DNA from: Sipunculus nudus
Lineage: Eukaryota; Annelida; Sipuncula; Golfingiida; Sipunculidae
Reading direction: 5' to 3'
NCBI GenBank assembly: GCA_026874595.1
Contig: CM049311.1
Location: forward strand, 57,496,453 to 57,560,452
DNA: 64,000 nucleotides
Shown here: one piece after another, positions 2,116 through 60,824 of the stretch
How the letters are laid out: every line of letters starts with the position of its first letter
How positions within the stretch are numbered: the stretch's first letter is position 1
Translations under genes and position numbers: made by a program
Notes under the pieces: generated by a model
What the model was told of the DNA's origin: nothing
Database searches by the model: none
The model's input: only the letters and a program-made list of their open reading frames with translations

Positions 2116-5719
<3,604 letters not shown>

Positions 5720-9791: not shown

Positions 9792-10067
9792 AATGCTCTT
9801 TTAGAGGTAAGCAATAATTTGGCATATTGACTTGTGGTGTGGGTCCCTTTAAAGATTTACAGGAATATTTCACGGGGTTTCCAGTGCAACCAAAGAACTC
9901 GAGGTCGAAGGTTCAGGGGTCCCGTAGTAATAACGATAATATTACAAGGATATATAATTAAAGCACACAGATAGAAAATATACCAATATTAATTAGGGAA
10001 TATTATATTGACATTCAATTTATACTTTGGCATCTATCTACAATATTTTGAAAATAATTTTACCTAC

Positions 10068-10130
10068 CTGCAACAAAGTGGACAAGATCTGATTCGACGT
10101 GTTGTCGATAGCATGACGTGAGGCTGGACT
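10068..10130 (+). repeat. 63-bp direct repeat, copy 2, at the pol break
   Basis: The second copy is fused directly to the truncated end of the gypsy pol frame, just after the residues FVWGPDQ. The truncation point of the element therefore coincides with this repeat. Confidence 0.9.
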
Positions 10131-10847: not shown

Positions 10848-11661
10848 CTTGCTGTCTTTCCGTAAGGGAAAGGGAGGGATCAATGGTAAATTGGTCAAGT
10901 ACGTTATCGTTGGCCTCGAGGCTGGATTTGCCAGAAGGAACAACAGAGGCCAATTGCAACGAACAGATGGTTGTTTTCGCTGGAATAGTTACAATGTCAT
11001 TTGTAAGATTAGACATTCTTATATCGAATCGTTTCTCTGAACGATTTTGCAAGTTTACCTCCATCAATAGAGGGTCTACTGCTAATCCCGCTGGAAGAGG
11101 ACCGTCAGGTTCTGTTGCAATCAACGTCTTTCCGTATGTACAAGCACGGGTTTTACCTGGTACAATAAGGGACTGATTGGGTGGTATAGCTATTTGCCTA
11201 AATGAGGTGACGAGGCCTATTGAAGAAGATTTAGCAGTCGCAAAGGTACAGCATTTTAAGGCTGACCGCCAGGCATCGGGAATTTTACTCTTCTGGAGGA
11301 ACCTAGGGCCCCCATCACCGCGAAGTATCCGAGCACACTGCTTTAAGACATTCTGTCCAATTACAAAAGGGTGCAACGCATTAAAGGTTGTATCTTTTAC
11401 CAGTAATACGGGAGTTGGAAAAATTTTATCCAATACACCTGGAAAATTAAAATTTATTTCAACAATGCCAAGGTATTCGAGATTATTTCCCCCTGCGACC
11501 TCTATGTTAAGGACATCAGATATTTGTTGGATTGGTAAAGAAGACAGATACTGATTGTAGAAATGTTCAGCCACTGTGGTAACAGAAGAGCCAGTGTCTA
11601 GTAAACCGGTACATGGAACCCCCTGTGATATGAGCGAGACACAATCTACATCCCCGGTCAA
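10848..11661 (-). pseudogene. pol: Gypsy retropepsin and spacer region of pol
   Basis: An aspartic protease domain with the active-site block GLLDTGSSVTTVAEHFY and the distal ALHPFVIGQNVLKQC motif is followed by a roughly 170-residue linker. The frame is +1 relative to gag and is open across the gag stop codon, so expression by +1 frameshifting, as in Ty3, is possible. The first potential start in the frame is TTG, not ATG, which also points to a fusion product. The frame is lost near 10847 by a one-base shift. Confidence 0.85.
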
Positions 11662-11683
11662 AGCAACAGGTATAACCTTGGGT

Positions 11684-13063: not shown

Positions 13064-13480
13064 AGTGGTGAGATCAAAGTTCTGTTTAGTTAGGTAAACA
13101 ACTACAGTGCAGTCAGTTACACTACAATCTAAGTTACACTACCGCTTAAAATCTAATAATTTATCTAAGTGAAGCTAAGCTTATCTTCAAGTGAAGTATC
13201 ATATTTGTAGCCTACTAGGTGATCACTAAATAAAATACAAGTACCGAACCTAGTATGAAATATACAAGGTCAGCTTACCTCTGTACAGGAGTACGTGAAT
13301 CTAAAAAGCAACTGGATTAGTGAACATTAATGTTTACATAACAACACTATCAGATATTAAAACAATTAGATATTAAATATCATAAGTAAACTTGATATGC
13401 AACAATGGATAATCAAAGTTGCACAATAACAAATAACTAGTGGTGACCCATGTGCTAATAATAAATGTATCTGTATCAAA
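13064..13480 (-). other. Leader between candidate LTR and gag
   Basis: AT-rich non-coding sequence upstream of the gag ATG. GGTCACC/GGTGACC inverted blocks occur at about 13441-13500. No gene is supported. Confidence 0.45.
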
Positions 13481-21097: not shown

Positions 21098-22072
21098 TCA
21101 AGAAAAATCATACGAAAGTATAAGCCCTAGGTGTTTATGGGTGTTGACCTCCGATAAACGTGTACCGTTCAACAAGAGTGCTGAGTAGACAGGCGGTGAC
21201 GATTTCAAGGAGAAAGTCATGGATACAGTCTTTGTGGGATTATATGTAATCCTGGACCGTCTTGCCCACCCTTCAAGCGTGGTAAGATCCCGTTGTAACC
21301 GATCGTTTCCCTCCTGTGAGTTATCCATGACACTAAAAAGGCAAGTGTCGTCAGCGAATAAGAAAATATTAGATTGTATATTAATACTTATATCATGTGT
21401 GTACACAAGAAACAGAAGAGGGTCACGGATGGACCCCTGGGGGACACCTGCAGTTATCTGACCCCACTTGGAGGAAACCCCATTTATAATGACTCGTTGT
21501 GTTCTATTACTCAGGTAACTCGAAAACCACTCAAGGAGATGGCCACGAATGCCCAATACTTTTAATTTGAAGATAAAACCTTTATGCCATGCTGTATCAA
21601 AGGCTTTGGATGAGTCTATGAAAACCATTCTCACATAATAGCCTGCATCAAGTCCGCGGTAAATTTTGTCAGTTATAGCGACCAGTTGGTTAATTGTTGA
21701 GTCATTCTTTTTAAATCCGGAATTAGTATAAGAAAGAAGTCCATTTGTCATAAGAAATGAATAAAGTTCATCATGTACAATACGTTCAAATACTTTTGAA
21801 ACGTTGCATAAAAGGGAGATAGGCCGATAGCTGCCAATTTCATGAGCATCCCCCTTTTTAAATACTGGACAGACATGTGCACGTTTCCATATATTGGGGA
21901 AACATCCTTCTTTTAAAGACTTGTTAAAGATAAGTGTTAATGATCTACATATGCTGTCGGCGGTAGCTCGCAAGAGAAAATTCCCTATATCGTCGGGACC
22001 AGTAGCTTTATTGTCCTTGAGTTCATTCAAGATGGTATGAACGTTGGATTCACGAGCTTTAATTGATGTCAA
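21098..22072 (-). pseudogene. LINE reverse transcriptase domain
   Basis: A 324-residue frame with RT motifs in order: KATGPDDIGNFLL, SYRPISLL, FIDSSKAFDTAWH (motif A), TAGVPQGSIRDPLLF (motif B), FADDTCLF (catalytic motif C) and HKHLGLILS. The catalytic aspartates are present. Upstream (22113-22580) a basic linker continues in another frame. Downstream the frame breaks near 21098. Confidence 0.92.
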
Positions 22073-22579
22073 TGCATAGGGAGTAAATGCAAATAAGTTG
22101 CCGATAGTAAATTCATCTTCGGCTGGCTCTGGTGTATTTTGGGAAAAAAGAAAGAATCATCTCATTTCCAACTTGGATAGGAGGTATACCAACTTGTCTC
22201 CTTTTACCGAGCAGACCTTTTACAGTGTGCCACCATGATTTATTGGTTGAATGCTCCAAGGAAATATTGAGATTTCGGAAATATAAATTTTGACAAGCTC
22301 GGTTTGCACGGACGACATCATTACGAGCGCGTTTGTAATGCTGATAATGTTGCTTGTCTCTAGTTCTATAACGGCGCCACAACCGATTTCGCTTTCGTAT
22401 TAATTTTCTCAGCTCGGCAGTCACCCAAGGTTTATCATTATGTCTTATTAAGACAGTTTTCTGCGGAACAAACTTAGATGCTATGGAGATAAAAATGTTG
22501 GTCCAAACCTCAGCGAGAGAGTTTACATCATTAATTTCTTCGAGGGTTCTGTCCTTAAATTTCTATCAAGGGCATTGTT

Positions 22580-23370
22580 TTATCCTTCCAAGTTAGCTCG
22601 TTTAAAATCCCAGATTGTTCTTCGGGTTGTTTTCGTTTTGTTAGGTGAAAATCTAAGCTTACAAAAGACAGGGCAATGATCGCAATTCGATATCGGTGGT
22701 AGGACCATAGTTGTTGTAATAGAATCTGGGCTATCGGTTATTAATAAATCTAATAAGGATTTACTGTATTCTGTAATTCGAGTAGGTTGGTCAACCATTT
22801 GAGCGAGCCCATTTCTATCAAACAAATCATGTAATTCAAGTCCGAGTTCACTGTTGTGATGATCGGAGTTCCATGTTAGACACCTGTCATTAAAGTCGCC
22901 TGTTAATAATATCAGACTAGCTGAACTGACCAGGGCTTTTTCTATCGACAACTCTAATGATTAAAGGAAAATTTCTCTAGTGGATTGTATTTGACCTGGA
23001 GGACGATAATAACATGCTATGAGCGTCGACCCCTTGGATCCCTGTACCTCTACCCACAGACATTCATTTTGATCATCAATAAGATCTCGTTGTTGTATTA
23101 CCTGAAGGTTACACTTGTAATATATAGCGACACCACCTCCATGTCTGTGTTGGTCTTTCCGTATTAATTCAAATACCGGTAGTGAAACTATGCTATCAGG
23201 AATGCTCGAGTCCAACCAACTTTCACTCACACGAATAATTTCAAGCTTGTATGGTTCGGACAAGATATCCAGCTCTTCTAATTTACCTACAGCTAATAAA
23301 CTCCTTACGTTGACGTGACATACAAGAAGTTCATGGGGGCGAGGCACAGGCCAGGGTTAGGATGGATGTC
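22580..23370 (-). pseudogene. LINE endonuclease domain (frameshifted)
   Basis: APE-type endonuclease. The first part has HVNVRSLLAVGKLEEL, SESWLD and HRHGGGVAIYYK, and CYYRPPG. A frame break near 22955 is followed by LLTGDFNDRCLTWNSD and SNCDHCPVF; the usual SDH motif reads CDH here. A further frame break near 23349 separates the 2A-like DIHPNPG motif from the domain. It nicks target DNA in active relatives; this copy is broken. Confidence 0.85.
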
Positions 23371-26487: not shown

Positions 26488-27652
26488 TAGTCGACAAGCG
26501 ACTAAGTGTATCCGCCGAAATCAGAGTGGGATGGATGAAGTGAGGCATGGGTTGAGTGGCAAGGGGAAATAGAGTGAGGTGTGTTGCATATTAGCATGGA
26601 TGTCTGCAGCCTAAATGTGTATGTAGGTTGCGCCACCTACCACAAAATCCAGAAAGCTGTCCAAGTTGTATACATATGCAAAATTTTAGGCAGAAAAGTC
26701 AAACCACTACTTTTATATAAGTGATTTTATCCCAGAGCAGACGAACAGTGGCAAAAATGGTGGCAGGTGGCGCCTCCAGTTTTGTATATGATAAAGAGCT
26801 ATGTGAGATCTATACACATGCAAAATTTTAGGAGGATACTGTAAACCAGTCCTGAGATATAAGCCTCGGTGTGTGCAGCGTAAACATAAATGTAGGTGGC
26901 CCCACCTGCCACAAAATCCAAAAAGGATACCCAAGATGTAAAAAATGCAAAATTTTAGGCAGATATGTCAAACCACTGCCGAGATATAAGTGATTTATCC
27001 CACGGCAGACTAACAGACGGACGCTTTGAAAAATGGTTGCAGGTGGCGCCGCCAGTTCTGCGTATGATAAAGCGCTATGTGAGATCTATACACATGCAAA
27101 ATTTTGGCCAAATCGGTCAAACGGTTCCCGAGATATGAGCTTGCATGTCTGCAGCGTAAACGTGAATGTAGGTGGCGCCACCTATCATAAAATCAAGAAA
27201 GCTGTCCAGGATGTATAAACCTGTAATTTTTCAGGTGGATCAGTCAAACTACTGCAGAGATGAGTTATTTTATCCCAAGGCAGATAAACAGATGGACGCT
27301 GTTCAAAAATGGTTGCAGGTGGGGCCACCGTTTTCAGTGTATGTTATAATGTTATCCAACGGCTACATTCGTGCAAACTTTTTTGCCTGATCGGTCAAAC
27401 GGTTCCCGAGATATGTTTATGTGTAGAAACAGATGGGCAGAGAGGAAAGGTCAGAGGTCAAAAATGAGGGCGCAGCAGTTCACATGTGACCCGATCATGA
27501 TTCCGAATTACATAAAATTCTGCCCAGTGGTTACGGAGGGGTTTTCCGGAAACCTAAGCGGCGGCGGCAGCGGCGGGGGGTGGGGGGTGGGGGGGGGGGG
27601 GATGCGTCCGTCTGAAAACATAGGATCAGCAAAACTCTGTTTTGGCGGATAC
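26488..27652 (+). mobile_element. Repeat family B (GTATCCGC hairpin), copy 1
   Basis: It begins with a small hairpin TAGTCGACAAGCGACTA followed by GTATCCGCC. It contains several tandem monomers with the AGGTGGCGCC motif and a GC-rich GGC/G tract (27560-27602), and ends TTTTGGCGGATAC. The 5' GTATCCGC and 3' GCGGATAC are inverted. The whole layout is shared with 47768-49226. Terminal hairpin, subterminal inverted repeat and a tandem core resemble Helentron-associated (HINE) elements; that assignment is an inference. Confidence 0.65.
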
Positions 27653-39284: not shown

Positions 39285-41768
39285 CACATTATACTTTATT
39301 TTCACATGATTTCATCTGGACAGTGATTATTTATTATCCGTATTAACACAGTGGCGAATTGCCGCATTTACACTGTGAAATGTAATGAAAATACATAGTA
39401 TTAACAGATAAATCTACATGGGATGTCACATTATGCGCTCATTGAAATACAAGCATGTCACTAGTTTCAGTGATACAAGAGTTCATTCTCAACCAAAGTG
39501 TTTGATGACATCATAATAGGTTTATTACATCATCATGTCACCACTGTGGTTACCATGACGTTAAGGCATGCCATCATCGTAACATTAAAATTGGGTTTCT
39601 TCTTACCCTTACATCTTCAACACAGTACTTCACATCAACATTAAGCAGTTGTGGGCAAGTTGGGGATTTCACCATGCGTTTGATATTTTGTATAGGCCTT
39701 AGATATAAATGACAGATTCAAACTGCAAAGATCTAAAATCCTATGAGGAACACACAATAATTGTGAGCCAATTTACTCATGGACATTTTATTAATGCAGT
39801 TGTTGTAACCAAAAGAACTATCACTGAGTCTGGTGTAAGCGGAGATAATCATGGTAACCATAATCATAGGATCACAGCGTATTATAAAGTTTATATAAAA
39901 AACTAGAGTATTAACAGCAAAGACACAAAAAGGGATAGCTTGTCCACAAAAACACTGTGAAATAGCGGGACTGGCTCTGAAACAATGTTATATACATGGA
40001 ACTATATGTGTACAGTGAAAATGATTTCTTCTTTATGTGCTTGTTTAAAATTAAACTTATTTGTATATTCACCACTGTTACAAATCAGGAGAATGAATCT
40101 ACACTTCAGTAAATGATCAGAGACAATAATAAACATTCCTGCCACAATATACAGTGAAATGAAACAAATAGCATGAAGATGACGGTAAATTGTATCTTTA
40201 CAGATACAATGTATACATTTTTACACAAAGTGTAGTAATTTTGACAGATGTGGGGGAAATTGGTGAGAAATAGGTACTGCATTGCATGTAATGGTATATC
40301 AGCAATACATATTTACCAATGATTTACATTTCTGTTACAGTTATCACTGAGACACAGCCTTTTTCCATATCATTAAAATGAAGTTTGCTATCAATAACAC
40401 TGATACTTTTAAATGGGAGATAATTTTCCTGACCTCTAAGGTAGATACAATACAAAATAATATGGTGTTTCATCTAGTAGCTGTGAGCATTAACTTGTTG
40501 TGGGTCTTTTATTCTGATATCTACTGGGTACAAAAATATGTCGAAAACAATCTAAAGAAAGGTTTGCAAACCCCAGCTCCAGAACTACCTACATTTTCTA
40601 AATCTATACAAATCTGGATCTACTGGCCCATGCAACCTGATTTGCAAGCAAGCTTGCTGTACCATTTATTCATATCAAAATGTGTTTCATTGCTTATTAG
40701 CAGAGATTTACCAAATTACAGGTTTAATTAAAACACCATTCCTTCAGTGCCAGTAAATGCAATAAGACCCACAGTAAGCTGAAAAAGCGAGACTAATCTG
40801 TCTGCCATGTAAGACAGTCTTCACCAGGGTCATTCTCTGAGTATATCCAGATATATATATTATATATATATCAGACTATAACATCAAGCCTTCTCTGATG
40901 AGGTATATTTTAGTGTAGACAACAAAACCTCAGTTAATGCCAACAACCTGTCCCCAATATATGTTTGGAAAACACAAAACATTAACAGGGTATTTTTTCT
41001 AATTCTATGTCCAACGCTTAATCAATTATCTTACTTACCTCAGAATATAAAAACCCCCAAGTCAGTCAAAAAGGCTCTGTTGTATTAACACTTATTAAAT
41101 ACACCACATGTTAAGAGGTTCCAACGCCATATTTTTCATTTACTCGATACGTCATTTACATTGATAAATTGAACATAAGAAATACACTACCTAGACTTAG
41201 TTCTAAACTCCTTCAGATTGGTGAGATTATATATTAATATTGTTAGTGCTAAAGCCAGCATGAATCAGGTGTTAATTTACAAGGTTAATCATTCGTATGG
41301 CATTGTACAACAACAAACAATAACATAAGTCTATAAACACAATTTCTTAGGTGATATGGTCAAAGCTTGGTACCTATTTGCACACAAACTATGTACAAGT
41401 CTCTACTAAGAGTACAAGAAAATAAACACAGCAGAATATTTTCTATTTTGGTTATTTTAAATGATTTCCTACAACTATAGATACACTGTATGCATGTTGT
41501 ACTCTAACAATAATAACAAGTGTGGTCTAATATTCATGCTAAACAGGACAAAACTGTACAAAATCTGTTGGCGTCTGTTTAATCCAGATGGAGAAGTATC
41601 CTCCGTCCATGCACATATCCACATGTATAGTACTCGATCAGACAATCGGGAAAATTCCTAGAAGTGAAACTAAGCCAAAGTTTTTCTTGGAAAGGTTGGT
41701 ATTTTATCTATGTCTGTTGGTGGTGTAATTAAAATAAGAGCCACGCACTTCAACGTTCTGTATTGTCC
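39285..41768 (-). other. Possible 3' UTR of the distal SNX3 isoform
   Basis: The sequence between the distal stop codon (41769) and an AATAAA on the minus strand at about 39293-39300 is AT-rich and, unlike the neighbouring DNA, nearly free of the repeat families seen elsewhere. A long 3' UTR is plausible. No transcript evidence is available. Confidence 0.35.
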
Positions 41769-41874
41769 TTATGCATTGCGGACCTTACCCGGCACATATT
41801 GTTTGTCTATTATCGGCTCTGTCAGAAATATATGTAAGCATCGCTCGTTCTGTGCCAGTGGATGCCCAGCTACT
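41769..41874 (-). CDS. SNX3: SNX3 alternative last exon 4b (distal)
   Basis: 106 nt after acceptor GATTTCAG. It encodes VAGHPLAQNERCLHIFLTEP then IIDKQYVPGKVRNA and a TAA stop. It is 4.3 kb beyond exon 4a, with the same length, phase and stop position but many silent differences. Its first base completes the lysine codon as AAA. Confidence 0.92.
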
Positions 41875-44800
41875 CTGAAATCACATCAACCACACCAGAA
41901 AAGGTGCATTATAGTTAAACAGGCTAACATAACATTGATCATGTTACTATTACTATAACAGTAACTCATACATGTATATTATAAATTTAAAATTATTGGT
42001 TTTCCCATCAGTCAACACAGCATGTTGTATCATTACAAACCTGTACCCTCACCTTCCTGCTAGCAGGTACATCACTAATAATAATACTAATCACTACTGT
42101 GTTCAGTATGTGACATAACACCACTGAATTATGATAGTAACAACAATATTAGCATTTTATCAGAGCTGACAGACAATGTAAAATGTTGAAAATATCTCAA
42201 CTGTCACTCCCAATGAGACTAATATCACATTTAAAATGGCTTTCATTTTTTCTACCATCACTGCTCTAAGCAAACACAAAAATATTTATGTTTGGTATTC
42301 ACACTTGTGCTTTTCACTTTGTTTAACTCACATGTCTGTTATTCTCTGAGTTTGTTCGTGTGTGTTATTTGTCATTATAGGCTGATAACTTTTCTAATTT
42401 AAACAATGCCCTGGTTTGGTTTCTCAGCTCCAGTTATAAATAAATACTTCATTCTAGGAGGTACAACATATTCATCTCAATGCATTTAAAACATATGAAC
42501 AAGGGACCTGTGGGTCATGGCGCACAGCTGAAATTAATTATGAGAATAATTTTATAATCAGCTGGATTTGTCACCAAGTGTATGTTTATAAGCTTTATCA
42601 AAATGTGGGTCCTGTGGTCAAGTCTGAAGCTAATCTGTCTGTCAGAGCTGGAGTTGTCATCCATTGACTATTTTGTGAATAGATGGGCCCTGTGACCTTG
42701 ATCTTTGACCCTGCGAACCCAAAATCATTAAGGTTCATCTCCTATTTGCAGGCAACTATTTGTTGGGGAAATGATGAAACACTATTTATTCATATATATG
42801 AAAAAGAATCATGGCAATCAATGCATTAGTTATTCAGATAGGAGCTTTTGTATCTAATTTTTAATTATTCTGGGGGGGGGGGGGGGGTTACTTACAAGCC
42901 TCATAGCTTGGAGGATACAGGTCACAGTAACATAATTTCAGGTTACCAAGGAAATTTTTATAGAATTCAATGGGTATTTAGTTAAGCTGGCCATATAAGA
43001 GGTGACATGTCACTCGACATGTTGCCTCATGTATGGCCAGCTTTAGAAGTTTCTACGTCTAGCAGATATGATTTGTGCCCTGTTAACGGACAGACCAACA
43101 GACCGACAGACAACAGACAATGAGTAATCACTAAAGCTCAGTTGACTTTCAGTCAGCTGAGCTAAAAAATTAATGATTTAATCTTAGGAACTGTTTGTAT
43201 ACTACATGCTGAAAGCATCAAACTGAAAGATTTAAACAAAATTATAATAGATAAACAAACAAAAAAATAAACCAATCAGGAAATGTAAGGCAATCTCACA
43301 AATCAAATTAATGAGGGAAAATAAAAACAAAAAAAAAAAGAAATCAAATGAGACAAAGGGAAACCTTGCTTTGCTTTTTATGACTAATAAAAAAAACTAT
43401 AATCTTTTTTTTTGTCCTTTCAGTTAAACACAGATTTTGTATCTTTTCTAATTTTATGATATATTAATATACCATTTAATTAATGCATAATTCAATATAC
43501 TGAATGAACCCAGATAATAACCTTTATCATCCTACATCTATTCCTAACAAAATTTTAAAACTCAAATGGAAATAATGTTTCATTCTAAGAGAAATTCATG
43601 CAAAACATTAATAATATTTTTTACAACAACCTGAGGTCCTGTTGGTTAGATGAAATTTGTTTTTCAGTTTAACAGTCACTAATTTATCCATGCGTGGGGG
43701 GGGGGGTTCTTAAATTTATAAATTCAGAGTCCCCGTCATTCTGGTGCCACAAGATAAATAAACAAAGACTTCCCTCTTTACATATTTACATATGAATCAA
43801 ACCTGGATTGAAAATATTAAAATTTTACTTGCATATGGAACTGTTGCCGCAATATGTGAGAATTCTTAGAAATAAACTGTATCATGCTCCTGGTTTATCA
43901 GAATTTTCCACTTAATATTTCATGTGGTGCAAAAAAAATGAGAATATGGATACAAGAACCTGAGATTATGCAGTCCTGCCACCCCAAACAAAAGTTGTTT
44001 GAATAATGCTTTTTCAGGGTTAACTAGTTAACTCAAGGGTCTTGGGTTACAGACAGCAGCTTTAGGCATTTAAAACCACAAATGGAGGAAATAAGGTTAA
44101 AGCGTACCTTCATGTATATTTGTCAATATTTATATCTAAATTAAGTATACTGCTAAATGAACGAGATTCACGAAAAGCACATGCATATGAGATCTACATG
44201 CAAACAGAAAAAGATACGGTTAATGCTGTGCACCAACATTCCTGAAATGTTTCCTTGCTGCATTGCTTATGTGCATTTACCAAATCTTTTTTGGCTTAAA
44301 AATGCTTTTTATAGGAATATATATTATCAAGATTTATCCCACTTCCACAGTTATGAAAGTGAGGTGGCACTGGAATTAGTTCATGAAAGTTTTTTCAAAG
44401 TCAGCATTTGGGTCAACACAAAAAAAAACACCTCTTCCCTTATGACATCCAATGTGAATAGCCCTCCACTCATTATACAAGGGGTGGAAAAGTTGAAGCT
44501 CTAAATTAAATCTGTTATGCACTACTTATTAAAAGTGTTAATGGTTTTTTCCAACCTTGGTGTCTGCAGGATGGGGCATATTATTTACAAAGGGATCCCT
44601 GTTAATACAGCCATAAGGCAGTCTAAAGTCCAGATGCCAGGGATAATACTGTATAATTATTTTCAAAGTGAATATTTATCACTATCTATGTGCATGGTGG
44701 AATAAGGTAAGTGGTGTTAGGGGAATCAGGGCAGTAGAAATCACATTCAAAAGCCTTAAAACCTAAATAACATACAGAAGAAATAAGAAAAAAAAAAATA

Positions 44801-47800
44801 AATGGTAAAAAATGAAAATAAAATATTTCTAATACTGCTATGCATTCCAACATATCCTGGAAAATTTGCAATAAATCAAAACAAATTTTACTCAGGAAAT
44901 GATTGTTTGGGAGTTCCTATCATACACTGCACGATTATAAAACAAATAAGCTTAAAACAATGGGTGTTCATGCCTTTTGTACTCCTATAAATTAAATTAT
45001 ATTTAAAAGAATAATGTGTATGTCTTTGTAAGGACAGTACTACTAAGTTTCCACGATGCTCAACCAATATAATAACTGCTTTCTTCTACTTGTGGTAAAT
45101 ACTGAAGGTATACACAGTAAACCAGCGAATTATGCATGAACCTGTAAGTTATTACTTAAGCACAAGCATTCTGACTTAAGCATTGTCCACATTGAGGTCT
45201 TACTATGTGTGTGAACTGCATGGAACCTTAAAGTGTTGTTTATTCCATTAAACAATTTTGTTTACAAAATCAAAACAAACTTTGATATAAAACTAATATT
45301 CACAAATCTGAATGAAAACTGGCTGTCTCCCTTTGAGTAAGATTTGTATGTGGCAAACTGCAGTAAGTTTAACAAAAGCGAACATGTTTCTAAATATGTT
45401 TCACCTATTTCAGTTGTGAATTTAGACTGAAATAGAAGTAAACACTTAACCAAAGATTAATTGTTGAACCTGTTATTTTGGGCTGAAAATATGTACATCA
45501 AAATATACTGGCATTATAAGGTGTTATGAATATCACCAGTCAATAATTTCAACAGCTCACATGATCATACCAAAATGTCTGAACAAAGTTAGCACCAGAT
45601 AATGTCATCAAAAAAAGGCCCGATCAGAAGTGAACATAAGGTAAAGGAGATAATTCAGAACCAACTCTACTATGACTTGATGACTATGATCTTGCTCAAC
45701 ATCTATACAACTTTTCTGTGAGCATATCTCAGTGGTGAACGATGATAAAACTGTCTTTCCTAACACTTAACAAACCCCTGTGTGTTGATATTCAATGAAA
45801 AGCTTGACTACAAATATCCATCACATGAAGTAAGCTTGTATCTTTGTAAACAATGAGTCAACATTGTAAAAGAGGCAGTGAGGTCATTTAGTAAAAGGCT
45901 AGCAAATTTGCAGTATTTTGTATGACAATATAAATCTCCATTATGGTTAAATACAGTATCAGCAATAAGGTCAGTAGTATTAACCTATTATTAAATATAT
46001 ATATATATATATATACACACACAGAGAATTTCATATTTCTCATGATGTAAAAGAAATCATCTAACTAATGAGAATGACTGACATAAATATAGGTAGGTGG
46101 AGCCTAGCCATATGACTGACAGGGGAGTATGAGCCTGTCAGGGCATGGTATGAGTTTCTATTGGCTGGTTTCTATACAGGGGCGGGATCACGTGGTGCGG
46201 ACTTTGCCAGGTACATAATTCTTGTCAATCACAGGCTCTAGCAGGAACATGTGCAGACAGCGCTCATTCTGAGCCAAGGGATGACCAGCCACCCTGCAAG
46301 AAGATAAGGTCCGTGGAAGTAGGCGAGCGCAGCATTAAAAGCTACAGGGATGAGATGACTTCTGTTGTCAATGCAAGGACAGCATCGTTCAGATAGGATT
46401 CAGTATGTCTGTGTGCAGTTATGCCAAGGTGCATATTCTTTGCCTTTTCAGGGTTCCCAGCACCTTCTGAAAACAACACTTTCTGAGTGTTCCTGTTATA
46501 TTTCCCTGACTGATATCTTTAACAAGCTTTAACAAGTGGCTACAGGAAAGCACCTTCAGTTAAATACTGGAAACTACACACTACATCTCATGTTGCACTG
46601 GCTTAAAACCATCCAATGTTTGATAATTGTCAAACCTCTGATTTTATCCTAAAACTTTAGTGTCTGACATACATTCATGGAGCCCTCTCATTTTAGTAAT
46701 ATAGAAATGTGGTTTCATTTTTTTCCCAGGTTAATTAGAATGGCTGGGAACCCTGAATCCATATAAAAATTCAATGTTTTCTCCTTACATTCTGAAAACC
46801 ATTATGCAAATATTACATCATTGTTAACTTTATGCTTAAGTTGTGTATTCCTGTTGTGGTCAGATTCTTGATCAGTGCACAATTAAGTATGTCCACAAAA
46901 CTTTGCCTGAATCAAAATATTGACTGGGAACTTTTGTTAACAGTAACACAACATGCAATGATGCTGGTCTGGTTTTAGTTATTTATGTGTCTCTATAAAT
47001 AGTTAGTGTTGTGAAATGAAGAAGATAAAGACTAAACAGCATGCATCTGCGAAACAGAATTCATTTGACAATAAATGTCTTGATAAAGAACAGTTGTAGC
47101 CCTTACTGTACACAACAAATACAAACAGAATTCATTTTTCCTTTACAGAAGCTGTTATCACTTATTTCTTTTTATCGTTAACTGTTATCTTTAAGCTAAG
47201 AATAACCACTGATAATTCAATGGAACTGATAAGGGAAACACTTGGTCATAATCCAGGATAATCTGACACAAACTAAAAAACATAAATTATTGCTGTGTCT
47301 GCTAAAGTAACAATTCCTTACCATTGCACACTGGTAGTGTATCTTCTAAATCACCAGTATGAATAAATTCCAAACAGTTGAATGCTATATTTTGCAACTG
47401 AATGAAATTAAAATGTATGGAAAAGGTTGCTCATCTGAAACTTTAGAAGCAACATGCCACACAAAACACTGGTTTTTCACCAGAATTTGAAGTCAAACTT
47501 GCAACCACAAACTGACAAACTTATATCTAAATAGGTAGGTGTATGACAGGAGAAGAGCCAAAATAAAACACTCCAAAGCTGTTGTGCACAAATGCTTGAA
47601 AACGTGAACACATACCACTTGGATATGCTTCAGAATGAGAAAAGGTTATACATGAAAGATATAGGTTATTAACATTTTTGAGTGTTTACCTGGAACATGT
47701 TAATAGTTGACCAACTTTTAAGGTAGCATCGCTGGCAAAATCATCTTAATTGAAACTAGAATACGGGTAGTCGACAAGCGACTACGTGTATCCGCCAAAA

Positions 47801-50800
47801 TCAGAGAAGGACAGGTGAAGTAAGGCATTGATTGAGTGGCAAGGGGATATAGAGTTACATGTGTTAAATATTAGAATGGATCTCTGCCACATAAACATGA
47901 TTGTAGGTGGCGCCACCTGTTATTTGAACGAGAAACTATCCAAGATATATACACATGCAAAATTTCATATGGAAAAGTCAAACCACAGCAGAGATATGAG
48001 TAATTTTATCCTACAGCAGACAAACAGATGGACGCTGTGCAAAAATGGCTGCAGGTGGCGCCACCATTTTTGTTCATGTTATAAAGCTATCCAAGGGCTA
48101 CATTTGTGTAAAATTTTTTTCCTGATCAGTTAAACGGTTCCTGAGTTATATGGATTTATGTGTGGAGTGTTAACGTGAATGTAGGTGGCGCCACCTGTCA
48201 TAAAATCAAGAAAGCTATCTAGGATGTATACACATGCCGAATTTTAGGTGAATTAGTCAAACCACTGCAGAGATATGAGTGATTTTAACCCCAGGCAGAT
48301 GAACAAATGGACACTGTGCAAACATGGTTGCAGGTGGCGCCACCTTTTGTTGTGTATGTAATAAAGCTATCCCAGGGCTACATTTGTGTAAAATTTTTTT
48401 CCGGATCGGTCAAACGGTTCCCGAGATATATGGGATTATGTGTGGAGCGTTAACGTGAATGTAGGTGGCGCCACCTGTCACAAAATCAAGAAAGCTATCT
48501 AGGATGTATATGCATGCCGAATTTTAGGTGAATTAGTCAAACCACTGCAGAGATATGAGTGATTTTAACCCCAGGCGGATGAACAGATGGACACTGTGCA
48601 AACATGGTTGCAGGTGGCGCCACCTTTTGTTGTGTATGTTATAAAGCTATCCCAGGGCTACATTTGTGTAAAATTTTTTTCCGGATCGGTCAAATGGTTC
48701 CCGAGATATATGGGATTATGTGTGGAGCGTTAACGTGAATGTAGGTGGCGCCACCTGTCACAAAATCAAGAAAGCTATCTAGGATGTATATGCATGCCGA
48801 AATTTAGGTGAATTAGTCAAATCACTGCAGAGATATGAGTGATTTTAACCCCAGGCAGATGAACAGATGGACACTGTGCAAACATGGTTGCAGGTGGCGC
48901 CACCTTTTGTTGTGTATGTTATAAAGCTTTCCCAGGGCTACATTTGTGTAAAATTTTTTTCCGGATCGGTCAAACGGTTCCCGAGATATATGGGTTTATG
49001 TGTGGAAACAGACGCACAAACGGACGCTGGGCAGAGACGAAAGGTCAGAGGTCAAGGTCACTTGGTTAGGCACCAGTTCACATGTGACCCGATAATTTGT
49101 GTAAGTTTCGGAAAAATCTGTCCAGTAGTCTCAGAGGAGTTCTCCGGAAACGAACGCGGCGGCGGCGGCGGCGGCGGAACCCGGTCAAAAACATAGTATC
49201 CGCAAAACTTCGTTTTGGCGGATACAAAAATCAATTAAAAGGCTGTTTCAGATTCATATTTGACTCTATAAAGTATAAACCATTTTAAACTGGTTACAGA
49301 GCTTTTTCAAATGATAAATTAAAATTGATTTTTTTTTTTATTTTGATTCAATAAAGAAACAGAGATTTCATTTTTAAACATGAGAGAAAAATGGTAGAGA
49401 AAAAATAACAAGAGCACCGCAAACATGCATAATATGTTGTCGTGTATCTGGTGACCTCTGACCCCATTGAATATGTGTTAAATCTGCTGAGAATTTAATT
49501 GAGGTGAAAATATGTATATTGAGTTTCATGAAAATCTAAGGATTTTTGTTAAGTCACCACGGTGCCTCAAAAGTGCAGTGACCTCTGACCTCATTAAATA
49601 TGCTTGGATTTTGCTGGAAATCAAACTTAGGCAAGATATTTTATTGATTAACATTTCTGACAAGTTATATCAAAATCCTTTATATTCATTTCGTGGCGAA
49701 ACAACTCAAAGTAGCCTTAATGACCCATGACCCTATATTAAATATGCGTGAATTTTGCCGATAATCAAACTTGGGGGAGATAATATGGTGGTTAGTAGCT
49801 ATGGTGAGTTTGGTGAAAATCCAACAAAGCCATGGAGAGTTTTTGTGGTGACACTAAAAGTTAGCGGACAGACAGACGGACTGTGGGTATACCATAATAC
49901 TCCTGCACATGAGGGGCGTATAAATATGATTTAGAGATATTGTCGTATATTAGCCCATCAAAAAATGGTTTGCTGTACCTGGTCGCTTAAAAACTTGAGT
50001 GCCATTTAAAAATTTTAAATCACATTGTATGTGAATTTTGTAAACACATGTACCATAAGAAAGAGCTCTGTACCAGGTTTAAATGATATATACTATATGG
50101 GGTCCAATGTGCATTTTAAACAGCATTATTTTTTATTTCAAAATTAGTTTTTTTTTGCCAGGGATGCTATCACAACAATGGTTACAAGCGATATTTGAGA
50201 CCTTGTATAGTTACATGGTGAATCAGAAGTTCTGTTAAAGCATGTTAGCACTAGGAGGGTATAGGTATTTGGGAAAGCTGGGGTTGTGGCATATTCATTT
50301 AAATACAGGAAGGTCAAGGCAATGCCAAGCAGAAATGTAAAAAAAATCTTTAAAATCCAGAATGCTAGCTCACATCAAGAGGTATAAATAACTGATAACA
50401 ACTATGTGTGGTAAGTAATAATTCACATGCTGTGTGACAGTTCTGGGTATACCGTAGTTAACATTCAGTTGAAGGAAGTGAATTTAACACTGTAGTTTGA
50501 AACAAAGTTGAACAAAGCAAAGCCACATAAAATTCATTGTCTTACCCGGAAATTGGTATAAAAAAGCATAACAAATATGGTAAAAATTCAGTCATGATCA
50601 CCTTATATTTTTTTCATATTCTATTTCGTTTTAAGGCAAAATCACATTTCCATGGATCTGCATTGATATACTCCTGGCAAAAGTCCAGAATGGTACAAGA
50701 AGATTAATGTTATTTAGATGTTATTACCCAACTCAGTATAACATCTGCATTATGGTCAGTTCATTTCTAAGAATGAGTTATATAATCGAGACAAACATTT

Positions 50801-53800: not shown

Positions 53801-56800
53801 GAAATATGAGGAAAAACAGATGAGTGGTTTTGATAATAGGCAGTCCTGAAGTGTGAAAATAGGTTTTTAATAAAAAATTGAGGTTTTTCCTTAATTTCTC
53901 AAAGGAATGAAGTCGCAAAGACCCAGTTTTCGGCTTGGTAGGAGATCTTGGGGACATCTAACATTATGCTGAATTTTGGATTCCTAGGTCTTACGGTTTC
54001 AAAACGTGCCACATCTACGGACGGACGGACGGACGGACAATGGACCACGACTATAGCTCAGATGACTTATAGTCAGCTGAGCTAAAAATAGACATAATTA
54101 AAATATATATATAAATACAAATATAATCTTTTTTTATTTAATCAATTAATGCAGACACTAATTTATACCTCATTAACCATTGTAAAAAAAAATTTGGAAA
54201 GAACTATCAGACCAGGGAAACTGGAAATACAGAACTTTGATCCTCAACATACAGAAAATACTTTATAAAAGCACTAACTGGAGCCTGTTTGCACTTTAAC
54301 CAGTACTGGCTGACCTGTAGCTTACATTTTGCAAAATAACATTAACTTTTGACTCCTCTAGTAAATGGAGATCACAATATCAAATATTATACGAACAGCA
54401 ATACAGAACCACAGCTTGGTATGCTGGAGGAAGTATTAAAATGGTTAACTGGGCTGGACTGAACAATCTTTATGCTTTGTGTTGTGTTATCTATATAAAT
54501 GATAAGTATTAATTTAACTGTTAATGTTTTTAATTCTAAACTTCACTCGATCCACCACCCCTGTCCACCTGTTTTTTACGCAATATGTTTTTGGTGTAAA
54601 ATGCACTAAAGCTTACCCTTATTTAACTCAAGAGGCCAATCACATAAATTTGGTGATTTTCTGATGGCTAAATAGTTCTCTCCCATGTATGGATTCCATA
54701 TGATGAATTGAAATTAAAATAGAACTGAAAAGATACACAGTACTGTGACACTGACAGCCAAAGCTGACTACATACATTTGATGATTCATAGAGATGACAT
54801 CATACTGGTATTTGTATGTCTCGTACAATACATGGATAAACAGATGATGGCCAGTGGGAATTTAGCCACCGTTTTGTGCAATTCTTTTTAGACAGGTCTT
54901 GATAGCATAAAAAAATACATTTATTTAATACTTATTTAAATTATCATTATTCATCACATCATCTGCTGTGACAAAAGCTGTTCTTTAGCAGCTGACAAAA
55001 TAAATTTAAAAGAAATATCACAAAAGAATTGGTGGAGAGGGGTGTTGGAACAGATAGTTATCAGAGTTAATCTTTCAGTATAGCATTTCATACTCACTTG
55101 TTTACAAATTGCTCCAAGCCCTTCCTCCTGTCCTCAATAAATTCTTCGTCAAAAATACCATCATCCCCCCTGAATGGAAGCTGCCGTGACCAGGCTTTGC
55201 CAGGGAGAGGTGGGACTACAATCTGTGAACACAATTTTTTGCCTGACTGATTGCTAATACTTACACCACCATATGTTACAGCCAACAACCTCTAATGCAT
55301 ATTTCAAGTAGATTAACAATTAAAAGAATATAAGACAACTTTAACATGAGCACCTCAAACATGCATAATACACCCATCGTGTATCTGGTGACCTCTGAAT
55401 TCATTAAATATGTGTGAATTTTGATGATAAGGTAATTCAGGGGAGGAACTCTATTGGTAAATATGTATACTGAGTTTCATGAAAATCCACAAGATTTTTT
55501 ATAAGTCACCAAGATGCCCTTAAGTGCAGTGACCTCTGACCTCATTAAATATGCATGGATGAGCTTTATCAATATCCTTCATATTCATTAGTTATTGCGG
55601 CAACCACACAAAGTAGTTATGGTGAGTTTCTGGAAAATCTATCAATGCCCCCGTAAGTTATCATGGCAACACTTAAAGTTAACAGATGAATGGATGGAAT
55701 ACCATAAAACTTCTGTCACTGGTGTATGATAAGTAATCTATGAATCTTGACAAAGTGTTAAATGTCCAACAAAGTATTACATCAAGATTAGTCAAAAACT
55801 AGTAAGAATAAGTAATTTTGATATAAAAATTCCTGAAAAATATATCTGTTTAATTGGGAAACATAACTCAAAGGAGTTAAGATGCTGATCAATTCACAAA
55901 CATATTCACAAGCAAGCTTATCACAGGCTTATTCTGGTTAACCAAACCAAAATTTGGTTCCATCTCAAGTTGCAAATTTAATATAAAATATCAATTTGGT
56001 TTTGCTTCCTGCATATTATATATAACAATATACATTAATGAACAGTGAATAAGCTTGACAGGGTCTAAACATTCCTTTTAAGGATGGTATGAGTATTGCT
56101 AAGAGTGGTTGCACAGGTGTCTGGTTCCCACAATTGTTGATATATAATCACTTTTTAAACCATCCTTTGTTCATAGATTTTAGAAGTAATATAAAGGGGC
56201 TCATTATTTATTGAAACAAGTGGCTCATTGGTCATAATACTCAGCTAACAAGCATGGCCAATGACATTTAAAGGGTAAGTGTTCTTTAAAATGTTTAGAA
56301 AATCTATGAAAGAAGCATACTTACCTTGCTATCTCTTTCTAATTCATTTTTAAGCCAGTCAAAATCACTGTATCTCCTCCTTACACTGGATTCTTTGACT
56401 TTAAATACAGGTAGGTTTGTCTGAAATACAAATCAGGTAACTATTTGACTAACAAAGCCTCACAGAACTGACTTGTATAAGCTTCTCCAACACATGTAAT
56501 ATCAATCCAAATGAAGGAACACTCAGTTATTTGACCAGCTTCAGAGAATTATTATTACAGAAAAGGATCCTTCAATCCTTAAATCACTTAACCAAGGAAT
56601 ATTATCATATGCATAATGCATGAAACATTCTTACTAAAAGCATACAAAACCTTATCTGGGAATTTGTTAAAAGGGCGAATTCTTAAAAAGTTGTCACATT
56701 GCATTAGTTCTGCTTCAGTTTACCAAAGAATATCTCCTACTGTGACCAGTGTGAAGTGACTATATAATGTCCATATTTCAGAGTCATCCAAAAATTAATA

Positions 56801-59800
56801 TCTATCCACTGACATTAGTAAACTGACTGCATTTAACCCTGTATCATACTCAATAATTACAAAATATCATGGACAATACATTTTTCAAAAGGGCACCGGG
56901 GGGGGGGGGGGTACCCAATCAATTCACCATCACACCCTTGAATTAGCTGAGCTTTCAGTACAATATATTGGCACTTATCACTGACATTAAAACTAGATCA
57001 TGGTGAACAGGTGAAGATATTGCCATCATATTGATTACTATCATCATTGACAAGCATTTGTTACAGCACATTCACCTTTCAAGTTTCCAGTGGTCCTTAA
57101 CTTTTCCCAAGCATATTACACAGTAAACATTGGAAAACCAGGTGGTGGTTACAATGTGTTATAGGGGAAACATGCTACTTACAAATGCTTGAGATGGGGA
57201 CTGGAGAACTGCCTGAATCAATGGTTAAAAAAAATCATTTGCACTGATAAATGGTATCATATGTTAATGTCTGAATAAAAAAATGTTTGTCTTGAATGAG
57301 ATGCTTCTCTTTGCCAAGATACCATAATTTGATGCTTATTGTAATGTCCTAGTTTGAAAACAGCATCATCTAGTGCAATTCCACAACAGAGGACAACAGA
57401 GGATTGGAAGAGAAGACTAGGTCTAAATAAATAGCCAAGTTTTAATTCAGATATTATATATACATGATCAATAAGGGTCCATGGATTAAGACATAACAAA
57501 TATATCAAATGATAACTGTTCATTCCTTAATCTGCAATAATAATCAGTAGTCTTCCTTGTCACCGACTGTCCTAAATGAGACATGCCAGTGGATGTGTTA
57601 GTTTCCATCAATTTAATTTTAGCACTGCAGTGTCTGTGTAGAAACGGCCATTTAAACCATTCATTTAACATGATGAATGCCACAGAGAGCTTTGGTTACC
57701 CTGACTCCTCCCACACTGACATAATTCCACAAACTACTACAGGTGTGTGCAAAATCCATGTGGGGGACCTCTTAGGAATGAGAAATGATTATTATTGTTA
57801 CAATAAAAAAAAAAATTAAAAAGTTACTAGAATGCAACAATTTATACAATACCGGTATACAATACACAAGGAATTTGGTTGAAAGCCTTAATCACACACA
57901 ACACACATCAAGGCTTGAATTTTTAATATAGTTATTAGTTATTATGAGCTATGAAACATGTCTGACAGTTTTACTGTTCAGAGGAAGCCCACAATTAAAT
58001 CCACATTTGGGAATGGTCAATTGGTTTCATTTTTGGGGCTGTTATTGTAAATTTTTCACTTTGATCAAATTTCAGGCTTAAATTAATGTTCATGACTTGA
58101 TGTATTAGTTAACAATTCCCTTTACATTGCAGATCAGTCACAATTATGCATGTGTGTGGTGTGTATTTTAAATAAATACTTACAAGCTATTTAACGTATT
58201 TATTCATGACTTAAAATGAATATATATACATGGAATATGATGCACAGAGCAGCACTGCCTGATGTGTGTTATAATTAGGTAATAAATGAAAGTAATTATA
58301 AACATATAAGTATTAAACAATAATGGAGATACTGAGCTGATATTCCTGCATATCAGACAATTGATCATAACACAGCAGATTATGGCTGAGCAATTAACAT
58401 CAAAAGGATATTACAAGAGGCCAATAGTTTCCTTAATTGCCCTGTACAATCAGACATGTTGGGGCATCTAATTACTCAGGCAGCATGCCGCAGCAGTAAT
58501 ATCCACCTTGATGTATCATTTGGTTGGCAGTGACACTCATCACAGCAACTCAGTAATGACAAAGGTTATAACAACAATTTGCAGTTCCAGTAGCTTTTTT
58601 TTTCAGACCAGATCAGCAATCAGGCCATATTTGTTACTTATATTTATGAATACATGGGTGGTCTCAATTTTGAGAAATTTATTGTATAATAATTTTAAAA
58701 TATATCTGGGACCAAGAAAACTGGTCAGAATTGTATGTATGGTCAGCAACAGCTTGCTGATGGCTATTAAAAGTATTATATTCTGTGATTTGATGATTCT
58801 GCAATTTATACTCATTTTACCTACCTTAAATGCAGAAAATACTCTGATCATAAACCATACATCCAAAATTTACCATTTTTGTCTGATTTCTTCACTGATG
58901 CAAGGCATAAATAATAATGCATGTATTAGCTGTCATATTTCTTCTTCTGTATATTAAATCAACAACTGGTTGGAAGTTTGTTGATGAGAGGAGGTGGAAT
59001 ATTATTAAAAAGAAGTTAGGCAGATCTGAACATTTACATAAGTTTGAACATTTTTAATGCATAAAAATGTGTTATATTAGTTATTAAAGTTACATACCGA
59101 AAAGTACGCAACTAGATGTTTTAAATATCAGTTAGCCACCGACGGCGACACAACAGGTTTCAGTTGCGTCGCCGGCCCACCATCAGGGATGGGGCCAGGT
59201 ACTTGTACCTGTACCTGTACCTAGGCACACATTTCAGAGTACCTGTACCTATACCTGCCGGTCATGAGTGAGAATACCTTGTACCTGTACCTGAAGTACC
59301 TGTACCTGGTACAAAGTACTCAAGGTACATTTTCATATTTTCATTTTTTTTAAGATTTATCCTCTTTAAGTGTTAAAATTGATTACCTGTAGTGTAAAAT
59401 AATCAGCAAGCCATCAGTGTGATAATATACTTTATACTTATATTTAAAATTTACTTTAGCAAACAACTTCAATATTGTTCGATAGGAAAAAAGGCATGTT
59501 AACTTGCATATATATGTGAATTTATGCCTTTATTATTATCTTTAAAAACGTCTTTGAAATAAAAAAATAAATGTACCTGTACCTGTACCTAGGTACTTTC
59601 TAAAGTACCTGTACCTAGGTACTCTGTGAAAATCAAGTACCTTTCTAAAGTACCTGTACCTAGGTACTCTGTGAAAATCAAGTACCTGTACCTGGCCAGT
59701 TCACAAGTACCTATACCTGTACCTAGGTACTTTCTAAAGTACCTGTACCTAGGTACTCTGTGAAAATCAAGTACCTTTCTAAAGTACCTGTACCTAGGTA

Positions 59801-60824
59801 CTCTGTGAAAATCAAGTACCTGTACCTGGCCAGTTCACAAGTACCTATACCTGTACCTAGGTACTTTCACTTGTACCCTGCCCACCATAGGGCTAACTGG
59901 GGTTATAACACGATACGATCTGTTACTCTTAGAAAGGAAATTGTTTAAAAATATTTCCTATGGTTTTAACATACCAATGTTCACATAATGTAGTATGTCA
60001 AAAGGCCTGTAATAAAAAATAACCACTCTGGAAAGCATGAAACACCTGTAACATCAACAATTGATTTAAATGACCAGATGGAATTGAAGCATTAACAGTC
60101 CAGCAGACATCTTGCATTCGGTAGCAGTCCTGTATAATGTTTTAGGCCTGTGTACTGTTATGTTCATATTTTACTTCCTTGGTGCAAAATAGTGATGTAA
60201 TGTTTTTCAGTGGTCAAATATACAATACACATAGGAGTACTGAGCATTAAACTATTGATATATGTTAAATTTCGCAGTTGTGTATGAAGTGTTATAATCA
60301 CAGTTAACTGCAGGTGCAATCTATGTACTCCACATTGCGTCAGTCACTAAAAAAGAGCAATTGAGGAGTCCATTCTTATGGGCTAAATATCAGTGTGCCA
60401 ATGGTTTAAGTTGACAGAGAAGAAAATTGAGGAGTTTCAATTTATTCAAAGCTGGAGGCAGTGGCCACATAATCCTTTGTGTCCGTTTAATGTATGTAAT
60501 TGGATCCGTCAAAGAGAAAAGAAAAATGGAAAATATCAGTGTCAGTAGCACACTTAGCAATAGCACTCATAGCCATACTATAGCAGTGAGTAAGCGTCAA
60601 ACTAAAAGACTAAAACCTAACCAGCTAAGCGGTAGGGGGTGGGGAATCCCCGCCCCTTCTCTTACCCTCATGCGGACTTCGTAGTCTGTGTATCTTTTCT
60701 TTCCAACTCCATGAGTTTCTGGGTTGAGAACATCGATTTCTAAAAAGTTAGCTGGTGGCGCGTACGCATCGTCCAGCGTCTGTTTCTTTGAGGGGATTCG
60801 CGATGTCGCGGAATTCGCTGCCAT
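41769..60824 (-). CDS. SNX3: Sorting nexin SNX3/SNX12 with alternative last exons
   Basis: A PX-domain protein that binds PI3P on early endosomes and, in animals, works with retromer to recycle cargo such as Wntless. The coding exons are 60824-60666, 56420-56325 and 55222-55098, then either 46293-46188 (4a) or 41874-41769 (4b). All junctions are GT-AG. Exon 3 ends two bases into a lysine codon that either last exon completes. Both forms give 161 residues, against 162 in human SNX3. Visible features are the N-terminal DDAYAPPANFLEIDV, the PI3P-binding RRRYSDF (Arg69, Tyr70), VVPPLPGK (Lys94), and the LPFRGDDGIFDEEFIEDRRK segment (Arg117), then VAGHPLAQNERCLH. Key lipid-contact residues are all retained. 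Introns are large (4.2, 1.1 and 8.8 kb) and full of repeats. Vertebrates have SNX3 and SNX12; an invertebrate copy corresponds to both. Confidence 0.95.
42498..43168 (+). mobile_element. Repeat family D with 3' hairpin, short copy
   Basis: It starts AACAAGGGACCTGTGGGTCA. It has GACAGACCAACAGACC-type runs at about 43090 and ends in a hairpin GCTCAGTTGACT-TTC-AGTCAGCTGAGC followed by TAAAAAA. The same head and tail occur at 51488 and 54089. A third head fragment lies at about 56213-56250. A G run lies at about 42873-42887. Confidence 0.6.
43169..45993. other. Intron between alternative SNX3 exons, no gene seen
   Basis: AT-rich sequence between exons 4a and 4b. It holds a short G run near 43697-43706. 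The polyadenylation signal for the 4a form should lie here; a minus-strand AATAAA near 45237 is one candidate. Confidence 0.45.
45994..46020. repeat. (TA)n(CA)n microsatellite
   Basis: A short TA tract followed by CA, 168 bp 3' of the exon 4a stop on the minus strand. Confidence 0.9.
46188..46293 (-). CDS. SNX3: SNX3 alternative last exon 4a (proximal)
   Basis: 106 nt after acceptor CTTGCAG. It encodes VAGHPLAQNERCLHMFLLEP then VIDKNYVPGKVRTT and a TGA stop. It lies 8.8 kb downstream of exon 3. Its first base completes the lysine codon as AAG. Confidence 0.93.
46294..47767. other. SNX3 intron 3 sequence, no feature seen
   Basis: AT-rich intronic sequence with no recognised repeat. Confidence 0.45.
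47768..49226 (+). mobile_element. Repeat family B (GTATCCGC hairpin), copy 2
   Basis: Same head (TAGTCGACAAGCGACTA then GTATCCGCC) and tail as 26488-27652. The 3' end forms a hairpin GTATCCGCAAAAC-TTC-GTTTTGGCGGATAC followed by AAAAA. A GGC trinucleotide run lies at 49155-49175. The core is a 280-bp tandem array (listed separately). It sits inside SNX3 intron 3. Confidence 0.7.
47903..49025 (+). repeat. 280-bp tandem array with GGCGCC palindrome
   Basis: Units start at 47903, 48181, 48461 and 48741 (periods 278, 280, 280). Each contains a perfect 14-bp palindrome AGGTGGCGCCACCT and a second related half-unit with GCAGGTGGCGCCACC. The 280-bp unit is thus itself a diverged dimer of about 140 bp, a higher-order repeat. 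The last three units are almost identical, implying recent amplification. Confidence 0.92.
49408..49926 (+). mobile_element. Repeat family E, copy 1
   Basis: It starts with GAGCACCGCAAACATGCATA. It has repeated GTGACCTCTGACC...ATTAAATATG subunits and a GACAGACAGACGGAC run, and ends in an imperfect hairpin (ATAATACTCCT...AGGGGCGTAT) followed by AAAT. It shares its head and subunits with 55346-55735. Confidence 0.6.
49927..51487. other. SNX3 intron 3 sequence, no feature seen
   Basis: AT-rich intronic DNA; nothing supported. Confidence 0.45.
51488..54089 (+). mobile_element. Repeat family D, long copy or two fragments
   Basis: The head AACAAGGGACCTATGGGTCA (51488) and tail hairpin GCTCAGATGACT-TAT-AGTCAGCTGAGC (about 54057-54085, then TAAAAA) match the short copy at 42498-43168. 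A GGACGGACGGAC run (54016-54036) precedes the hairpin. The interior holds a 672-bp tandem duplication. Whether the head and tail belong to one 2.6-kb copy is uncertain. Confidence 0.5.
52829..54005 (+). repeat. 672-bp tandem duplication
   Basis: CGTGCCATGGTCA begins at 52829 and 53501. The ordered blocks TTTGGGCCCATAACTT, TTTCTGGCATGT and GTGGTTTTGATA recur at the same spacing. A third partial start (AACGTGCCA) occurs at 54003. The copies are clearly diverged. Confidence 0.85.
54090..55097. other. SNX3 intron 3, exon-3-proximal part
   Basis: No feature other than AT-rich sequence. Confidence 0.45.
55098..55222 (-). CDS. SNX3: SNX3 exon 3
   Basis: 41 codons plus two bases, IVVPPLPGKAWSRQLPFRGD through LEQFVN, ending before GTGAGT. 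The final two bases (AA) begin a lysine codon completed by either last exon. Confidence 0.96.
55346..55735 (+). mobile_element. Repeat family E, copy 2
   Basis: It begins GAGCACCTCAAACATGCATA and carries two GTGACCTCTGA...ATTAAATATG subunits, as at 49408-49926. It lies in SNX3 intron 2. The tail is degraded. Confidence 0.6.
56325..56420 (-). CDS. SNX3: SNX3 exon 2
   Basis: 32 codons, TNLPVFKVKESSVRRRYSDF through ELERDSK, phase 0 at both sides. It carries the arginine and tyrosine of the phosphoinositide pocket. Confidence 0.96.
56421..59142. other. SNX3 intron 1, downstream part
   Basis: No gene. It holds a G run at about 56890-56900. Open frames up to 149 codons at 58508-58957 have no recognisable domain and an AT-rich, chance-like composition. 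Confidence 0.5.
59143..59174. repeat. GC-rich hairpin next to a hAT insertion
   Basis: CGGCGACACAAC (59143-59154) faces GTTGCGTCGCCG (59163-59174), 11 of 12 complementary across 8 bp. It is GC-rich in an AT-rich intron and ends one base before the hAT target duplication. Confidence 0.8.
59184..59880. mobile_element. Non-autonomous hAT element with perfect 8-bp TSD
   Basis: 697 bp bounded by identical 8-bp flanks cccaccat (59176-59183 and 59881-59888). The ends are CAGGGATGGGG and, in reverse, CAGGGTACAAGTG. The interior is dominated by GTACCTGTACCT and the palindrome GTACCTAGGTAC, with a 134-bp tandem duplication (GGCCAGTTCACAAG at 59694 and 59828). No transposase is present; the small open frame is a repeat artefact. 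It lies in SNX3 intron 1. Confidence 0.88.
60666..60824 (-). CDS. SNX3: SNX3 exon 1 (coding part)
   Basis: 53 codons from ATG 60824-60822 (MAANSATSRIPSKKQTLDDA...) to EVRMR, ending in phase 0 at a GTAAGA donor. This matches the point where human SNX3 reads EIRVK before TNLP. Confidence 0.95.

Follow-up and report, generated by a model that had tools for sequence, protein, structure and literature searches.

In a stretch of 64,000 nt from Sipunculus nudus (assembly GCA_026874595.1, contig CM049311.1, positions 57,496,453 to 57,560,452; referred to as the window), we identified a complete SNX3 gene on the minus strand, consisting of three shared exons and two candidate last exons, named 4a (proximal) and 4b (distal). 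The two last exons are best explained by an old tandem duplication of the last coding exon in a single-copy gene, both copies having been kept as alternative last exons. We assign this interpretation a probability of roughly 0.8, a value that refers to alternative last exons in general and includes the case that the two encoded proteins are functionally equivalent. SNX3 connects retromer with the membrane of endosomes, and Wntless recycling depends on it. In the window, the following features were annotated:

60666 to 60824, minus strand: coding portion of SNX3 exon 1, from Met1 to Arg53, with donor GTAAGA; a single strong genome match.
56325 to 56420, minus strand: SNX3 exon 2 (TNLPVF to ERDSK), with acceptor TTTCAG and donor GTAAGT; a single strong genome match.
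55098 to 55222, minus strand: SNX3 exon 3 (IVVPPLPGK to QFVN, plus the AA of a lysine codon), with acceptor TTCACAG and donor GTGAGT; a single strong genome match.
46188 to 46293, minus strand: proximal alternative last exon (4a), encoding a tail with VRTT at its end; acceptor CTTGCAG, tract with a pyrimidine fraction of 0.70.
45239 to 45244, minus strand: putative poly(A) signal AATAAA, the first AATAAA or ATTAAA past 4a, 944 nt after the stop codon; motif only.
41769 to 41874, minus strand: distal alternative last exon (4b), encoding a tail with VRNA at its end; acceptor ATTTCAG, tract with a pyrimidine fraction of 0.50.
41578 to 41583, minus strand: putative poly(A) signal ATTAAA, the first AATAAA or ATTAAA past 4b, 186 nt after the stop codon; motif only.

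Exons 4a and 4b are located 4.3 kb apart on one contig, both comprise 106 nt, share the same phase, and are each preceded by an AG acceptor, and their coordinates agreed exactly with the original prediction. The same was true for the reading frame: exon 3, which ends at position 55098 with the donor GTGAGT, begins a split lysine codon with AA, this codon is completed as AA-G or AA-A by the one or the other last exon, and each of them then encodes 34 residues and a stop codon. The joined coding sequence of 486 nt is open with either last exon and yields a protein of 161 residues. The pair thus consists of adjacent homologous terminal coding exons of the same phase and similar length, each with its own acceptor and stop, as in other tandem-duplicated last exons. 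GC content was 0.53 in 4a and 0.46 in 4b, compared with 0.33–0.34 in the surrounding introns, and a motif scan revealed no GTRAG donor within 300 nt of either stop codon. Downstream of 4b, the first AATAAA, as distinct from ATTAAA, starts at position 40670 (likewise a motif only). Since each exon ends in its own stop codon and a separate poly(A) site would be required for each, we replaced the label "mutually exclusive", under which the pair had been predicted, with alternative last exons; PMC5740500 also distinguishes terminal exons from internal mutually exclusive ones, as promoters and polyadenylation join in the choice.

Based on conserved domains, PX (Pfam PF00787) was the only family listed for the two isoforms, with E values of 1.4e-24 and 1.1e-24. 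Comparison with solved structures, for which the query was composed of exons 3 plus 4 only, resulted in SNX3 or SNX12 chains in the top six of 13 rows for either isoform (E 3.5e-38 to 4.6e-32), while the other rows reached E 2.7e-6 or weaker and included one further Sorting nexin-3 chain (7blq). Human SNX3 aligned in order over exons 1, 2, 3, and 4. In the human protein, changing Tyr22, Glu30-Ile31-Asp32, Glu50, or Arg160 leads to a loss of VPS35 binding, for which a double-arginine motif was named as well (PMC6137200). All of the former were present at the aligned places, namely Tyr22, Glu30-Ile31-Asp32, and Glu50 in the shared part and Arg160 in both tails. Both isoforms would be complete SNX3 proteins and are expected to bind PI3P and retromer.

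Of the 106 nt, 32 differ between the two last exons, as do six of the 34 residues, leaving 28/34 residues identical. Thirty of the nucleotide differences fall into the 34 codons, one into the split lysine codon, and one into the stop codon, and their distribution over codon positions 1, 2, and 3 is 6/3/23, much as predicted (six amino acid changes, about thirty nucleotide changes, most of them silent). Nei-Gojobori counting resulted in a pS of 0.88 and a pN of 0.11. The dN/dS check proposed for the two exons, performed here within this gene, gave an omega of 0.03 and a dS of about 3.8 under the codon model; omega = 1 was rejected for the pair (2dlnL 37), indicating purifying selection, and constraining dS to a value near 1 worsened the fit by about 3.5 log units relative to the best. 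When 30 random substitutions were introduced into the 34 codons in a neutral simulation, six or fewer amino acid changes were obtained in 0 of 20000 runs from either exon, with a mean of about 18 changes and a stop codon in 50% and 62% of the runs. In a one-branch simulation with 15 neutral substitutions started from 4a, 246 of 20000 runs showed six or fewer amino acid changes and no stop. Both tails are also about equally near to human SNX3 (24/34 identical residues for 4a and 25/34 for 4b), which, together with the simulations, makes it likely that neither copy was a dead exon for long. These results bear out the proposal of an old duplication under purifying selection, the saturated silent sites, our sole indicator of age, pointing to an old event.

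Similarity between the two copies ends at the exon edges, as it extends in register over only 6 nt upstream of the exon and not past the stop codon. The best other upstream match between the flanks had an E value of 0.06, the 1.2 kb downstream of 4a and 4b shared no more than two short, AT-rich, out-of-register matches (E 0.001 and 0.005), and a short-word comparison of the wider flanks revealed no match. Comparison of intron 3 with the interval between 4a and 4b detected direct matches over 72 nt (78%) and 59 nt (76%), the longer of which also contains a single inverted match of 30 nt. RNA pairing that would loop out 4a was considered as a candidate and discarded, the matches between intron 3 and this interval being taken for putative dispersed repeats.

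From this arrangement, we infer that an old tandem duplication doubled the last coding exon of a single-copy SNX3 gene and that splicing and polyadenylation now offer a choice between two C-termini, both of them presumably expressed. Exon 3 would be spliced to the proximal 4a, resulting in a transcript with the 3' UTR of 4a, or would skip 4a and be spliced to the distal 4b, resulting in the other 3' UTR. The poorer pyrimidine tract of the distal acceptor (0.50 compared with 0.70) counts against this explanation, and, the proximal acceptor having the better tract, 4b may be used to a limited extent or may depend on additional factors.

In human SNX3 numbering, 4a and 4b differ at positions 143 (M/I), 146 (L/T), 149 (V/I), 153 (N/Q), 161 (T/N), and 162 (T/A). 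By position, the changes are thus located in the last helix and tail, as predicted, and the last two directly follow Arg160, which is kept in both tails. Tail residues Ile150, Tyr154, and Ile159 of human SNX3 pack on the PX core (PMC5843628), and the corresponding residues are I/Y/V in 4a as well as in 4b. While the tail is described as structured in PMC5843628, it is described as unstructured and near the VPS35-binding surface in PMC6137200. According to the latter, SNX3 binds VPS35 primarily through its N-terminal region together with strands beta1 and beta2, while for the extreme C-terminus an additional influence is given only as a possibility. Of three mutants of the tail, Arg160 to Ala was the only one in which VPS35 binding was lost (PMC6137200), which we counted against our explanation. 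The changes had been predicted to lie next to the surface for retromer and cargo contacts. By position, the retromer side of this claim is supported. Cargo sits on VPS26 near the SNX3 interface according to PMC7990337; in the retromer literature examined, no support was found for the SNX3 tail contacting cargo itself, and no residues of the SNX3 tail were found in the passages of PMC13043683. Human SNX3 and SNX12 also differ at 149 and 153, i.e., at two of the four comparable variable sites (143 and 146 are not comparable), so that the six changes between 4a and 4b may be tolerated drift.

Under the alternative-last-exon reading, the six residues would lie in the last helix and in a tail packing back beside the VPS35-binding surface, and the choice of exon would probably tune retromer affinity or tail packing slightly and at the same time swap the 3' UTR. 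Both isoforms are expected to work with retromer, with an affinity that is at most tuned. It is quite possible, at somewhat less than even odds, that both last exons are used, that their proteins are functionally equivalent, and that the pair was kept for its differing 3' UTRs, which could act on stability, localisation, or translation control. Such equivalence would fit with three of the six changes being conservative (M/I, V/I, and N/Q), with all six sparing the known packing residues and Arg160, and with the sites shared with the SNX3/SNX12 comparison (two of four), and differing 3' UTRs would fit with the 1.2 kb after each exon, which lack in-register similarity past the exon (best AT-rich match E 0.001). 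However, TT versus NA right after Arg160 and L versus T at position 146 could matter, and equivalent and tuned proteins are not separable on sequence alone.

For the number of copies, we searched the whole assembly (1.43 Gb in 153 contigs, with the window in contig 6) using a genome search in which scoring is limited to the best candidates for each exon. The 4b peptide resulted in three matches at E up to 10, namely 4b, 4a, and a 42% match in contig 12 (E 2.69), and the whole SNX3 protein resulted in eight matches at E up to 1, namely exons 1, 2, 3, 4a, and 4b and three elsewhere (E 0.09 or more). This whole-assembly search thus revealed neither a close paralogue of SNX3 nor a processed copy or a duplicate contig, and further copies of exons 1–3 were found neither in the window nor at strong score in the genome. 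One of the 17 PX matches in the genome was SNX3 exon 3 itself, and comparison of SNX3 with eight PX loci (L001–L008) revealed local matches only, in six of the eight (best E 1e-5). Scans of viral and prokaryote contigs gave 12 and 75 pattern stretches, respectively, none of which was confirmed as a relative. Thus, exon 4 was found twice and exons 1–3 once each at strong score, and based on these genome-wide counts, along with the divergence of 4a and 4b, we rejected a processed copy, a tandem gene copy, or a haplotype duplicate, which counters the objection, raised with the original prediction, that the distal exon might belong to a separate processed copy or an assembly duplication.

We regard it as very improbable that 4b (or 4a) has ceased to be spliced and is a remnant, either of another SNX3 gene once arranged in tandem or of an SNX3-like paralogue that was lost. 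The distal acceptor does look weaker, and a precedent for a last exon of foreign origin is given by KRAS exon 4A, which reportedly came from NRAS by exon copying (PMC9882654), but the search for further exons 1–3 was negative in the window and, at strong score, in the genome, frame, stop, and acceptor are intact in both exons, and an omega of 0.03 argues against a dead exon. An assembly artefact, in which a haplotype copy or misjoin would have placed one exon 4 allele twice, has in its favour only that 4a and 4b lie 4.3 kb apart in one contig, and it is hardly credible, since silent sites are saturated (dS about 3.8) and the flanks are unrelated, both of which speak against two alleles, and in view of the lack of a third exon 4 copy on other contigs.

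Alternative last exons are known from other genes. The tails of CDC42 differ in lipid modification, and we know of no lipid-modification signal in SNX3 tails. In CDC42, C-terminal splicing leads to variants with distinct targeting tails, and in KRAS, exons 4A and 4B, in this order, provide one protein body with two C-terminal ends (PMC9882654). Like the SNX3 gene described here, KRAS has four coding exons with two alternative last exons (PMC9882654), but its tails carry different membrane-targeting signals, while the SNX3 tails are 28/34 identical. Furthermore, KRAS4A was reportedly copied from NRAS (PMC9882654), whereas no close SNX3 paralogue was found in the assembly. Among 236 human tandem duplicated exon substitution events, 77 swap homologous C-terminal regions, and most residue changes are conservative (PMC9741552); this C-terminal class is of the same kind as SNX3 4a/4b, and neither SNX nor sorting nexin appears in the main text of that study. 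Tandemly repeated homologous terminal exons are also present in the Drosophila sulfotransferase gene pip, in which they are used mutually exclusively and form eight clusters, compared with one pair of single exons in SNX3 (PMC9013439).

Human SNX3 and SNX12 likewise represent two SNX3-type proteins with differing tails, both of which bind VPS35 (PMC6137200), but are encoded by two genes instead of by two exons of one gene. While 4a was slightly nearer to SNX12 (25/30 identical residues compared with 23 for 4b) and 4b slightly nearer to SNX3 (25/34 compared with 24), these differences of one or two residues are too small to claim a parallel, and an assignment of 4a as SNX12-like and 4b as SNX3-like was rejected. 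Among the titles and abstract openings listed from the open-licence literature, including those on mutually exclusive exons of bivalves, no report of alternative SNX3 last exons was found. Altogether, SNX3 4a/4b is a known kind of exon duplication, and the SNX3 case is new, in an otherwise conservative gene.

A more far-reaching version of our explanation, in which an ancient, lineage-wide switch of the SNX3 last exon would tune retromer affinity via the residues adjacent to Arg160 and the last helix, so that one gene would do the job of vertebrate SNX3 and SNX12 and would affect cargo, for example Wntless, in a tissue-specific manner, seems unlikely to us. If both proteins are made, a pair of SNX3 proteins differing only at six residues would provide a natural test of the role of the tail in retromer binding, and, if the alternative-last-exon reading is true, the core machinery of endosomal sorting would join the systems in which C-terminal exons have been duplicated.

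Three tandem repeats were detected in the window, two of which lie within introns of the sorting nexin gene SNX3.

Tandem repeats in the window
26600-27326: tandem array of 276-280 bp units
47894-49006: tandem array of 276-280 bp units, within SNX3 intron 3
59573-59868: tandem repeat of a 134-bp unit (2.2 copies, 99% alike), within SNX3 intron 1

The sequence GTAGGTGGCGCCACCT was present in units of both arrays of 276-280 bp units, and the two arrays appear related by eye. The 134-bp repeat was composed of smaller units rich in GTACCTAGGTAC.

Two stretches of the minus strand revealed similarities to retroelements. The region 21101-23356 resembles a non-LTR retrotransposon, with a reverse transcriptase domain at 21101-22156 (Pfam RVT_1, E 4e-28) and more open frames upstream, of which the one tested (22116-22562) gave no Pfam match. 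Retroelement-like open frames were also found at 10060-13138, where one frame of 484 aa carries an RRM-like stretch together with a PNMA-like gag and, scoring below its cut-off, a CCHC zinc finger; this combination of domains is unusual. The two frames following it had no match in Pfam and were judged by eye to belong to a retroelement. On the plus strand, a 281-aa open frame (18308-19153) showed no Pfam match at E 0.001.

An actin gene lies downstream of SNX3, likewise on the minus strand, with exons at 2098-5230; Pfam Actin was matched in all three stretches tested. Elsewhere in the assembly, the weak SNX3-like matches from searches with SNX3 peptides include two loci, L012 on contig 12 (42% over 26 residues, E 2.69, exon 4b peptide) and L018 on contig 11 (61% over 30 residues, E 0.093, whole protein), both of which are probably other PX genes.
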